A stretch of DNA of 36,511 nucleotides. It comes from Candidatus Pelagibacterales bacterium. Lineage in GTDB: Bacteria; Pseudomonadota; Alphaproteobacteria; TMED109. The position numbers and the translations under genes are program-made. The DNA lies in NCBI GenBank assembly GCA_002715505.1, contig PAZF01000024.1, positions 1-36,511 on the forward strand. The letters are read 5' to 3'. The notes under the pieces were generated by a model. That model saw only the letters and a program-made list of their open reading frames with translations, was not told where the DNA came from and made no database searches. This document shows positions 1 to 3,411 of the stretch, one piece after another; within the stretch, counting starts at the first letter, position 1, and every line of letters starts with the position of its first letter.

Positions 1-1522
1 AAACAAAATCTTTAGCATATTTTGCTTCACATCCTAGTCCAATCGATAACATACTTTTTTTTTGTCCATATCTTCCAATACCTTTTTCAACAGTTCTAGC
101 AATACAGACATATTTTTCCCCATTTGTCATTTTGCTTACAGCAGCTTGAATTACACCTGGTCTGGAAAATGCTGAATAAACGTTCCATCTTGGACAAGCA
201 CCACCGTATCTTGGAATTTCTATGCCTGATAATGAAAATCTTTTTGAAATATTTCCTGCAACATCTACTCTTAAAAAATGGAAAGGGACGCCAGGTAAAC
301 TTGGATCATTTAAACAAGTGACTCTATGAGTAACTTGCTCGAATGATGTGGCGAATGTATTTTGTAATAATTCTAAATCATATTTTAATTTTTTACATTC
401 AGAATGAAAAAGTTTATAAGGCATTAAAATTGCTGCTCCACAATAATTTAATAAAGCAACTTTAGTTAATTTTTTAGATTCTTCTGATGGAAAATTGAAA
501 GTTTCAAGAAGTCTGTTAATTTCATCTATAGCCCCTTCCTGCACAATTTGTGCTGCAGCATGTAGTTTTTTTGTTTCCAAAGAAAGATAATCAGACAATA
601 TAAGTTCTTTATTTTTATTATCAAAAATTTTTGAAAATGGTTTTCCATCTTCAGGAATTATATCTTTAACTGTAATTCCATACTCTGAATTTAAAAATTT
701 ACAAAGAGATATATATCTAGTTCTATTATTTTGTTTTACTCTATCAAATATTTTATTTGCAAAATCTTCTAATTTCGGGAAATAATTTTTATTTTCTTGT
801 AAAAAATCAGATATAACCTCTCCAGGAAAAGAATTTTTTCTGTTATCTACTATTTTTCCTGAAAGCTTTTCAATTTTATTTACAAGCTCATGATCTTTTT
901 TTTTATAGTTATCTCCTAATTTGATTAAAGCTTTAGCAATTTTTGGATTTGTGCTTACTAAATCTTTAACTTCTGGACCAAGTATATCCAGATCCTCAAA
1001 AAGCTGATCATCTAAAAGTTCTGAAATATCATTTTCGAGATTGATATCACTTTTGCTTGTTAAATCAGAAAGATCAACCCTCAATTCATTGCTAATTTTA
1101 ATTAATAGATTTCCATCGATTTTTCTTTTGCTACTCTCAATTAAATTTAAGTAACTTGGAGATATATTAACTTTTTCTGCAAACTTGTTTGCCTGCAGCC
1201 CTAACTGTCTTCTAAAAGCTTTTATTTTTGGGCCAATTTTTAAATCTAATTTATTAAGATTTTTTCCCCTAGAAAAATTTGCAATTGCAAGTTTTGAGTT
1301 ATTTAGATCAATTTCTTTTTCACTTTTTAAGTCAGATAATTCTATTCTAAGTTCCTGGCAAATTTTTAATAGTAAATCAGCATCTATACCTCTTTTTCCA
1401 TTTTCAATTAAATTTAGATAACTCGGTGAAATAGAGAGTTGCTCAGCTAATTTCTTAGCCTGAAGACCTAATTTTTCTCTAAAACTTTTAATTTTAAAGC
1501 CAATTTCCCTATTAATTTGCAT
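1..1522 (-). CDS. ScfR/RamB-type XRE-family transcriptional regulator with duplicated HTH (3' end cut by window edge)
   Basis: Reading the minus strand from the ATG at 1522 gives 507 uninterrupted codons to the window edge. Two XRE-type helix-turn-helix domains lie in tandem, about residues 7-65 and 96-154; both contain SPSYLNLIE and end in LSDL. The middle part carries KLHAAAQI and a region like the IrrE/M78-linked segment of this family. The C-terminal part (LPGVPFHFLRVD, GNISKRFS, GGACPRWN, CIARTV) is typical of the DUF2083 short-chain-fatty-acid regulators (RamB, PccR, ScfR). Members sense short acyl-CoAs and control propionyl-CoA, glyoxylate-shunt or methylcitrate genes. The last ~45 residues, usually Cys-rich, are outside the window. 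It is divergent from aceA, so aceA is the likely target. No Shine-Dalgarno precedes the ATG; a TTTGTAAA box ends 2 nt before it. Family members normally have one HTH. Confidence 0.93.
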   Translation of the reverse strand, partial: MQINREIGFKIKSFREKLGLQAKKLAEQLSISPSYLNLIENGKRGIDADLLLKICQELRIELSDLKSEKEIDLNNSKLAIANFSRGKNLNKLDLKIGPKIKAFRRQLGLQANKFAEKVNISPSYLNLIESSKRKIDGNLLIKISNELRVDLSDLTSKSDINLENDISELLDDQLFEDLDILGPEVKDLVSTNPKIAKALIKLGDNYKKKDHELVNKIEKLSGKIVDNRKNSFPGEVISDFLQENKNYFPKLEDFANKIFDRVKQNNRTRYISLCKFLNSEYGITVKDIIPEDGKPFSKIFDNKNKELILSDYLSLETKKLHAAAQIVQEGAIDEINRLLETFNFPSEESKKLTKVALLNYCGAAILMPYKLFHSECKKLKYDLELLQNTFATSFEQVTHRVTCLNDPSLPGVPFHFLRVDVAGNISKRFSLSGIEIPRYGGACPRWNVYSAFSRPGVIQAAVSKMTNGEKYVCIARTVEKGIGRYGQKKSMLSIGLGCEAKYAKDFV

Positions 1523-1524
1523 AT

Positions 1525-1615
1525 TTTGTAAATTTTGTAAATTTTAATTTACAAAAAATAAACCAAATTTACAAGTAAAATGTAGCTTTTTTGTAGATTT
1601 TGTAAATGTTGTAAA
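1525..1615. promoter_or_regulatory. Array of TTTGTAAA-like operator boxes between the regulator and the aceA unit
   Basis: The divergent gap holds seven boxes matching TTTGTAAA or its complement. On the plus strand TTTGTAAA occurs at 1525-1532, 1534-1541 and 1599-1606, with variants TTTGTAGA at 1590-1597 and GTTGTAAA at 1608-1615. The complement TTTACAAA is at 1548-1555 and TTTACAAG at 1568-1575. Starts 1525/1534 and 1590/1599/1608 are spaced exactly 9 bp. From memory, PccR of Rhodobacter binds paired TTTGCAAA boxes, so these are plausible operators for the adjacent ScfR-type regulator. One cluster abuts the regulator start (autoregulation) and the other lies just upstream of the aceA-side genes. 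Binding itself is inferred. Confidence 0.6.
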
Positions 1616-1628
1616 TTATAAGATATCT

Positions 1629-1790
1629 ATGGATAAAAACAAAATTAACACTGAAAGCCACTCTAATACTACTAATATTCAAGAGCATAATGAGCATAAA
1701 TCTAGGGGAATTTACCTAAGAGATGATCACTGCGACTGGGGATCTAGCGGTATGAATGAATTCACTCAAGAGTTTAGTGATAAAGAATAA
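1629..1790 (+). CDS. Small hydrophilic protein (53 aa) between the operator array and aceA
   Basis: An ATG at 1629 opens a 53-codon frame ending TAA at 1790, 29 nt before aceA and in the same direction. I do not recognise it. The N-terminal half is Asn/His/Lys/Glu-rich and looks disordered. The C-terminal half (RGIYLRDDHCDWGSSGMNEF) looks more constrained, with acidic residues around a His-Cys pair and single Trp, Tyr and Gly residues. No signal peptide or membrane segment is present. The position makes co-transcription with aceA likely. It is the only sizeable use of the 200 bp between the operators and aceA, so it is either a real small protein or the translated leader of aceA. No strong Shine-Dalgarno is visible. 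Confidence 0.6.
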   Translation: MDKNKINTESHSNTTNIQEHNEHKSRGIYLRDDHCDWGSSGMNEFTQEFSDKE

Positions 1791-1819
1791 TTTATCCAAA
1801 ATTATCTAAATATTTTAAT

Positions 1820-3103
1820 ATGAGCTCAGAAACCAAGATAAATTACGACCTAAAAAGATTTGCAGACATTAGAAGAGACTATAAACCCGAAGAGGTTGAA
1901 AGATTAAGAGGATCATTAAAAATTGAATATTCAATCAGCAAACAACAGTCAAAAAAATTATGGAATTTGTTAAATACAGAGCCGTACATCAATACTCTAG
2001 GATCCTTATCTGGCAATCAAGCTGTTCAACATGCTAAGGCTGGTTTAAAAGCAATATATTTAAGTGGGTGGCAAGTCGCGGCCGATGCTAATAGTGCAGG
2101 AGAGATGTATCCAGACCAATCATTATATCCCTATGATAGTGCTCCAAAATTAGTTGAAGCAATGAATAATTCACTTATCAGAGCAGATCAAATTCAACAT
2201 ATGGAGTTGATTGATGGTGATATGAAAAAAGAAAACCAAACTGACTATATGTTGCCCATAATAGCAGATGGCGAGGCAGGATTTGGTGGACCTTTAAATG
2301 TTTTTGAATTAACAAAAAAATTCATTAAAGCTGGAGCAGCAGGAGTTCACTTCGAGGATCAGTTAGCAAGTGAAAAAAAATGTGGTCATATGGGTGGCAA
2401 AGTCTTAGTTCCAACTAGCACTATGGTCAGAAACCTTAAAGCAGCAAGATTAGCGTCAGATATAGCAGATGTACCTCTCATCATATTAGCAAGAACTGAT
2501 GCTAACGCTGCTAAATTAATTACAAATGATTTTGATGAAAATGATAAACCTTTTTTAACTGGTGAAAGATCTCCAGAGGGTTTCTTTTATGTAAAAGATG
2601 GAATAGAGCAAGCAATCTCTAGAGGTCTAGCTTATGCTCCATACGCAGATTTAATATGGTGTGAAACAGCAACACCGAATTTAGATGAAGCAAAGAAATT
2701 TGCTGATGCTATCCATGAAAAATATCCTGGTAAGATGTTAGCTTATAATTGTTCGCCATCATTTAATTGGAAAAAAAATTTGGACGACGCACAAATTAAT
2801 ACATTTCAAAAAGAACTTGGAGCGATGGATTATAAATTTCAATTTATAACCTTAGCAGGTTTTCATAATCTTAATTTATCAACTTTTAATTTAGCAAAAG
2901 CATATTCTGAAAATGGAATGAGTGCGTATGCAACTTTGCAAGAAGAAGAGTTTTCTAAAGAAACTGAAGGTTATACTGCTACCAAACACCAAAGGGAAGT
3001 TGGAGTAAGCTATTTTGACAAAGTAGCTGAAGTTCTGTCTTCAGGAAAGAGCTCTACTTCAGCTATGAAAGATTCTACAGAAACGGAACAATTTAATGAA
3101 TAG
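1820..3103 (+). CDS. aceA: Isocitrate lyase
   Basis: Cleaves isocitrate to succinate and glyoxylate, the first step of the glyoxylate shunt, needed when acetyl-CoA is the main carbon source. The 427-residue length is normal for the bacterial enzyme. The SGWQVAAD segment (82-89), the metal-binding IADGEAGFGG region (148-157) and the catalytic KKCGH signature (186-190, Cys188) are intact, as is the later SPSFNW motif. The start is an ATG without an obvious Shine-Dalgarno. Malate synthase, the usual partner, is not in the window. The divergent ScfR-type regulator and the boxes upstream suggest acyl-CoA-dependent control, as RamB does for aceA in Corynebacterium. The last 8 nt overlap the next small ORF. 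Confidence 0.98.
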   Translation: MSSETKINYDLKRFADIRRDYKPEEVERLRGSLKIEYSISKQQSKKLWNLLNTEPYINTLGSLSGNQAVQHAKAGLKAIYLSGWQVAADANSAGEMYPDQSLYPYDSAPKLVEAMNNSLIRADQIQHMELIDGDMKKENQTDYMLPIIADGEAGFGGPLNVFELTKKFIKAGAAGVHFEDQLASEKKCGHMGGKVLVPTSTMVRNLKAARLASDIADVPLIILARTDANAAKLITNDFDENDKPFLTGERSPEGFFYVKDGIEQAISRGLAYAPYADLIWCETATPNLDEAKKFADAIHEKYPGKMLAYNCSPSFNWKKNLDDAQINTFQKELGAMDYKFQFITLAGFHNLNLSTFNLAKAYSENGMSAYATLQEEEFSKETEGYTATKHQREVGVSYFDKVAEVLSSGKSSTSAMKDSTETEQFNE

Positions 3104-3281
3104 TGATAATTCTGATAATAATTCACAGAGAATAAAAGGAGGAATATTTGCGAAAGCAGATATAGACTTACTAAAAAAAACTTTAGACTTTTACATTAAA
3201 AATAATAAAAATTTAAACACTAAAGAACAATCTAAAATAAGTCTTTTATTTCATAGATTAGGCCGGATGTCTTCCAAATAA
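3096..3281 (+). CDS. Small conserved-looking protein (61 aa) overlapping the end of aceA
   Basis: The ATG lies 8 nt inside the aceA stop, in another frame, which suggests translational coupling. The 61-residue product has a disordered Ser/Asn-rich start and then a likely helical pair: residues ~18-36 (KADIDLLKKTLDFYIKNN) and ~42-57 (TKEQSKISLLFHRLGRMS). The ending LLFHRLGR resembles short helical proteins of unknown function in alphaproteobacteria, but I cannot name a family. It lies in an aceA operon and is followed by a minus-strand tRNA, so it is the last gene of this transcript. A role linked to isocitrate lyase is possible only by position. Confidence 0.65.
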   Translation: MNSDNSDNNSQRIKGGIFAKADIDLLKKTLDFYIKNNKNLNTKEQSKISLLFHRLGRMSSK

Positions 3282-3287
3282 AGTTAA

Positions 3288-3411
3288 TTTAAATGACTAA
3301 AAAAGAGCTCTAGTAGAGATTCGAACTCTATCCACTGGTTTCGAAGACCTGTATGCTATCCATTACACCACTAGAGCTAATCAGTAAAGATTACCAGTTA
3401 GTCATATTTAA
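3288..3411. repeat. Imperfect inverted repeat flanking the tRNA
   Basis: TTTAAATGACTAA at 3288-3300 is matched by TTAGTCATATTTAA at 3398-3411, its reverse complement with one inserted A. The arms enclose the tRNA exactly, with 5 nt on one side and 20 nt on the other. In a long precursor they would form an outer stem below the acceptor stem. The right arm also lies between the -35 and -10 elements of the putative alcohol dehydrogenase promoter. Confidence 0.5.
3306..3377 (-). tRNA. tRNA-Arg (anticodon UCG)
   Basis: The minus strand folds into a full cloverleaf of 72 nt: acceptor stem GCTCTAG/CTAGAGC (7 perfect pairs), D arm GTGT-AATGGATA-GCAT, anticodon loop CTTCGAA, variable loop TGGA, T arm TAGAG-TTCGAAT-CTCTA. 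The anticodon is TCG, reading CGA/CGG arginine codons. A20 in the D loop and C35 agree with arginine identity. Oddities: an A-A mismatch in the second pair of the anticodon stem (CAGGT/ACCAG), and a U discriminator that could pair with the A at position -1 to give an eighth acceptor pair. CCA is not encoded. A run of six T follows the 3' end (3299 side) and could help termination. Being a tRNA is near certain; the isoacceptor call is less so. Confidence 0.88.

Follow-up and report, generated by a model that had tools for sequence, protein, structure and literature searches.

The window, which is the whole stretch of 36,511 nucleotides analysed here and corresponds to contig C24 of genome G000, begins with a gene for an ScfR-type regulator bearing two HTHs at its N-terminus, followed by the divergently encoded isocitrate lyase gene (icl), with a putative operator and a small ORF in the gap between the two (Table 1). 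Within the regulator, Pfam recognises HTH_3 (PF01381, E 1.4e-25) in two stretches, with Peptidase_M78/IrrE-like (PF06114) behind them and the ScfR domain PF09856 at the C-terminus (E 1.3e-36, 126 bits against a cut-off of 24), the match to the latter stopping at position 105 of 157 in the profile, where the contig ends. HTH1 and HTH2 are identical at 40 of 59 positions (68%) without any gap and with a period of 89 residues (BLASTP E 3e-28). The first-pass annotation had described an ScfR-type regulator with two tandem HTHs, and BLASTP of the two halves, together with Pfam, reproduced its coordinates and its period exactly. AlphaFold2 places helical HTH units at residues 1-66 and ~96-150, with block pLDDT values mostly between 70 and 86; the linker separating them (67-94) is modelled at low confidence, as is the core of the regulator. 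The recognition helix SPSYLNLIE is common to HTH1, HTH2 and the single HTHs of relatives, with small variations, and that of HTH1 is nearly invariant across the double-HTH proteins.

Table 1. Features at the start of the window (positions in the window; residues refer to the ScfR-type protein).
Feature	Position	Strand	Remarks
ScfR-type regulator gene, two N-terminal HTHs	2..1522	minus	507 codons, open at contig end
HTH1 (residues 7-65)	1328..1504	minus	Pfam HTH_3; BLASTP; AlphaFold2 helices, pLDDT ~74-86
HTH2 (residues 96-154)	1061..1237	minus	counterpart of the single HTH of relatives
Probable second switch point within the ScfR gene	780..818		double-HTH type on N-terminal side, single-HTH L071 type on C-terminal side
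Putative operator, six TTGTAAA-type boxes	1525..1616		read from sequence; common to single- and double-HTH loci
Direct boxes	1525-1533, 1534-1542		within the putative operator
Inverted boxes	1548-1554, 1568-1574		within the putative operator
Direct boxes	1599-1607, 1609-1616		within the putative operator
Palindrome TTTACAAGTAAA	1568..1579		formed by inverted box 4 and one additional half-site; mostly at double-HTH loci
Small ORF, 53 aa, conserved GIYLRDDHCDWGSSG	1629..1790	plus	between boxes and icl
Isocitrate lyase gene (icl), hybrid	1820..3103	plus	5' part SAR11-like, 3' part native
39-nt exact match to contig C26, misjoin point	2738..2776		C26 17393-17431

The double-HTH protein is a variant, with a duplicated head, of the already known ScfR regulator family. 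It has the ScfR/IsaR domain order, the IrrE-like PF06114 preceding PF09856, and the N-terminal HTH of this family is present twice over. The four cysteines of the [4Fe4S] cluster are accounted for by C443 in the window protein, which aligns with C363 of MtPrpR, and by the CX2CX4C motif of the full-length SAR11 relatives, a point before which the window protein ends; the gene also adjoins icl with boxes in the intergenic gap, as is typical of RamB. Among proteins of known structure, the nearest relative is MtPrpR of Mycobacterium tuberculosis (PDB 6CYY, 6CYJ, 6CZ6, 6D2S; PMC6765138), the prototype of the IsaR group, whose family is likewise tied to acyl-CoA metabolism; the alignment of the core to it spans residues 155-504 (E 1e-46), with the Fe-S ligand cysteines kept. 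MtPrpR binds CoA, is tetrameric and contains a [4Fe4S] cluster, for which a role in iron sensing has been proposed (PMC6765138). It was originally supposed that two HTHs per chain would give four per dimer; since MtPrpR is tetrameric, eight HTHs per particle would be the better expectation. MtPrpR differs from the present protein in having one HTH, in its main target, which is the methylcitrate cycle, and in F155, the aligned residue here being a glycine (G234), a substitution suggesting that the ligand preference may be unlike that of MtPrpR. The class 2 RamB of Paracoccus denitrificans (PMC10370305), with which the comparison was made by description, also belongs to the ScfR family, lies divergent from glyoxylate-cycle genes, and binds paired intergenic boxes and CoA esters; it has two boxes ahead of malate synthase with 18 bp between them, whereas here there are six, the direct pairs being spaced by 9 nt, upstream of the small ORF and icl. 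In two other alphaproteobacterial ScfR proteins (L030, L031), an insert between HTH and core resembles, by eye only, a histidine-kinase dimerisation segment (SIRSFSEIL). Among open-access papers, none was found on ScfR or RamB of SAR11 or on a double-HTH ScfR.

The origin of this end of the contig has to be considered before its biology. Positions 1 to ~2757 are SAR11 (Pelagibacteraceae) DNA: the ScfR protein shares 75-87% identity with double-HTH proteins of SAR11 and at most ~42% with proteins from the order to which the host belongs, one short fragment excepted, while SecY, encoded on the same contig, shows 96-97% identity to three congeners and ~60% to SAR11 genomes. The transition falls inside icl, which is SAR11-like to ~2738 and native from ~2776. 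The icl of contig C26 in the same assembly is the mirror image, its native part coming first and its SAR11-like part second, and C24 and C26 both end shortly past the switch, in SAR11-like sequence. A reciprocal swap at a common stretch, with both contig ends SAR11-like, is the signature of a misassembly. Moreover, the C26-type upstream region, icl and the C24-type downstream region are colinear on a single contig in a congener (G002) and in two more distant genomes (G010, G005), whose ScfR matches lie on contigs other than that of icl. On the basis of the fetched regions, which were compared in place of the whole genome, the window is very probably a chimeric contig, in which a SAR11 fragment and the contig of a different alphaproteobacterium have been misjoined within icl. 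The gap between the identities of SecY and ScfR had suggested a horizontal transfer of the ScfR-icl module, an idea demoted once the reciprocal hybrid on C26 and the colinearity in relatives were found. In its most explicit form, namely a true acquisition of the SAR11 segment by homologous recombination within icl by a host that also keeps its own ScfR on contig C5, it would agree with the open reading frame of the hybrid icl, with a contig composition that is even as far as the test could resolve, and with the C5 copy as a sign that such genes are native to the lineage. It is nevertheless improbable in view of the mirror-image hybrid at the same 39-mer on a contig that, like this one, soon ends SAR11-like, of the unbroken native order in the three relatives with ScfR matches elsewhere, and of a second switch in the ScfR gene, again at a common stretch. 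Base composition was uninformative for the foreign segment, both lineages having ~28-31% GC and the test windows being 12 kb long.

Several observations concern the remainder of the assembly. The short ORF (GGIFAKADIDLLKKTLDFYIKNNKNL) that follows icl, in the region 3104-3377, is native to the genus of the window, as is a tRNA-Arg (tcg) on the minus strand at 3305-3377; G002 has both in the same order, with 79% DNA identity. Between 7483 and 20417, on the minus strand, genes resemble by eye those of leucine/isovalerate and acyl-CoA breakdown (lyase, hydratase, carboxylase subunits, thiolase, acyl-CoA dehydrogenase). Four other contigs of G000, C1 (L113), C28 (L130), C25 (L128) and C31 (L132), have GC contents of 51.5%, 45.3%, 38.9% and 39.1% and tetranucleotide correlations of 0.09, 0.20, 0.78 and 0.61 against the remaining contigs, and from this odd composition they may be further foreign contigs in the bin. 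The chimera described above is also a caution that a regulator found where a metagenome-assembled contig ends may be that of another organism.

The SAR11 segment is itself composite. Residues ~1-230 of the ScfR protein are like those of double-HTH SAR11 proteins, and the DNA of residues ~250-507 is ~91-100% identical to its best match within the single-HTH L071 group; around residues 236-248, 29-38 nt are common to the window and both lineages. The small ORF before icl most resembles, by eye, a further SAR11 type (L083). The ScfR gene of the window is therefore best described, from these comparisons, as probably a patchwork, arising either from misassembly or from recombination between SAR11 strains. 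The double HTH is independent of this patchwork, since HTH1 and HTH2 are on the same side of the break and the other double-HTH loci carry both in one reading frame. Of the first-pass assertion that no assembly error was involved, the part concerning the duplication stands; for the locus it fails, given a chimeric contig end and a mosaic gene.

The duplication is established by 37 further full-length double-HTH loci in separate SAR11 assemblies. These came from a contig scan of genomes in which the 80 nearest SAR11 loci were compared, and which gave 37 full double forms (L033-L069), one form truncated at its beginning (L070) and 42 single forms (L071-L112); icl is divergent from ScfR in the double-HTH loci as well. 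Of 297 genomes sampled across the order, 168 had an ScfR match, and among the matches listed 19 of these genomes cover both HTHs, the others starting at the second. The single form includes G085 and G087, represented by near-complete contigs of 1,308,759 and 1,456,888 bases. The window alone matched across both HTHs in a class-wide sample of 385 alphaproteobacterial genomes, and MtPrpR has one HTH, so that the single HTH is the norm, as the first-pass annotation had stated; the double HTH, occurring in a minority of SAR11 genomes, is no universal trait of the family. The single-HTH ScfR of most other Pelagibacterales (e.g. L071-L112, L208-L227) occupies the same locus, with divergent icl, small ORF and six boxes, and is ~77-90% identical over the part in common, but lacks residues 1-88.

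At the evolutionary level, a tree of the C-terminal part, from which the mosaic window was left out, shows double and single forms interleaved, with about five state changes (five to six); a count of only two, obtained in a first C-terminal tree of the 80 nearest loci, was superseded by this broader sample. In a tree of the HTHs, built on an alignment of 60 columns, the HTH1 copies cluster (support 95/88), except for L045, which is placed among the HTH2 copies, and the HTH2 copies are scattered. From the grouping of the HTH1 copies and the approximately five state changes, we infer one HTH duplication within the Pelagibacterales, followed by repeated loss or exchange by recombination, the direction of change being an indirect deduction because counts of state changes are blind to gain versus loss and the HTH alignment is so short. 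The single HTH is not a simple hybrid of HTH1 and HTH2: when its halves are compared separately, the first is nearer to HTH2 and the second gives a mixed picture.

The tandem boxes that had been reported between ScfR and icl (window 1523-1819) are indeed present. It had also been suggested that two HTHs per chain could read such boxes. A dependence of the boxes on the double HTH was ruled out, as the same six boxes, with the same 9-nt spacing of the direct pairs, occur at single-HTH SAR11 loci, and similar boxes are also present in single-HTH relatives outside SAR11. The sole operator difference found between double and single loci is the palindrome TTTACwwGYAAA, present in 36 of 42 double loci against 1 of 66 single loci (65 of which are without it). 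When independent contrasts are considered, of which there are four, a mean of 2.7 agree and none oppose (p=0.25), and the link between palindrome and double form is to be regarded, at the level of sequence, as a lead and not as a result. These data also bear on the view that the duplication is neutral, so that HTH1 could be gained or lost with regulation unaffected: some five state changes in closely related strains and the same six boxes in both forms are what it would predict, yet the near invariance of the recognition helix, and the bias of the palindrome toward double-HTH loci, though on few independent contrasts, make it rather unlikely. The small ORF, with its almost invariant GIYLRDDHCDWGSSG core, was found in 107 of 107 SAR11 ScfR-icl gaps examined; its variation falls mainly at third codon positions, which indicates that it is probably a real protein. 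It had no Pfam match and was absent from the non-SAR11 loci fetched.

We propose that the regulator is a SAR11 (Pelagibacteraceae) protein of the ScfR/IsaR family, encoded divergently from the glyoxylate-shunt gene icl, which would occupy the ScfR-icl gap as a tetramer dependent on CoA-thioester and [4Fe4S], and would control icl. As the recognition helix is common to both HTHs, both copies in one chain should read the same TTGTAAA-type half-sites. The double form would then contact more half-sites per tetramer, perhaps including the TTTACwwGYAAA palindrome, and would bind more tightly or cooperatively without a new specificity. Taken as a whole, the reading of a SAR11 icl regulator whose HTH was duplicated once, which contacts more half-sites and which was misassembled into the window, is the one we favour, albeit by a modest degree of confidence. 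XRE-type domains can mediate protein contacts, and HTH1 could accordingly be a non-binding or protein-contact domain, for instance one providing cooperativity between tetramers, with no direct role on DNA. Its evolutionary dispensability, HTH1 being absent from most SAR11 genomes with the gene, would suit such a role, but a recognition helix that is the same as that of HTH2 and conserved across double-HTH proteins argues for retained DNA reading, and we regard the protein-contact role as unlikely. It is very improbable that the two HTHs read different sequences and confer a second specificity: the copies do differ at ~30% of positions, but not in the recognition helix, which is the same in both.

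It can be tentatively hypothesised that SAR11 populations switch the icl regulator between one and two heads by deletion or exchange of HTH1, the palindrome being gained or lost alongside. If this were true, such switching would tune the strength of the glyoxylate-shunt response to acyl-CoA and iron status. SAR11 bacteria have few transcription factors. No open-access paper naming a regulator of SAR11 icl was found. Expression of icl in SAR11 is reportedly higher in iron-limited water, as mentioned in a paper citing Beier et al. 2015 (PMC6618146). Combining this report with the conserved Fe-S ligands and the adjacency of icl, we consider the regulator a reasonable candidate, on sequence grounds, for the link between iron and icl. 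An Fe-S/CoA-type regulator beside icl, with a labile second HTH, provides a concrete candidate for the icl regulator of SAR11, and its natural one-head and two-head variants allow the co-evolution of HTH dosage and operator architecture to be studied.
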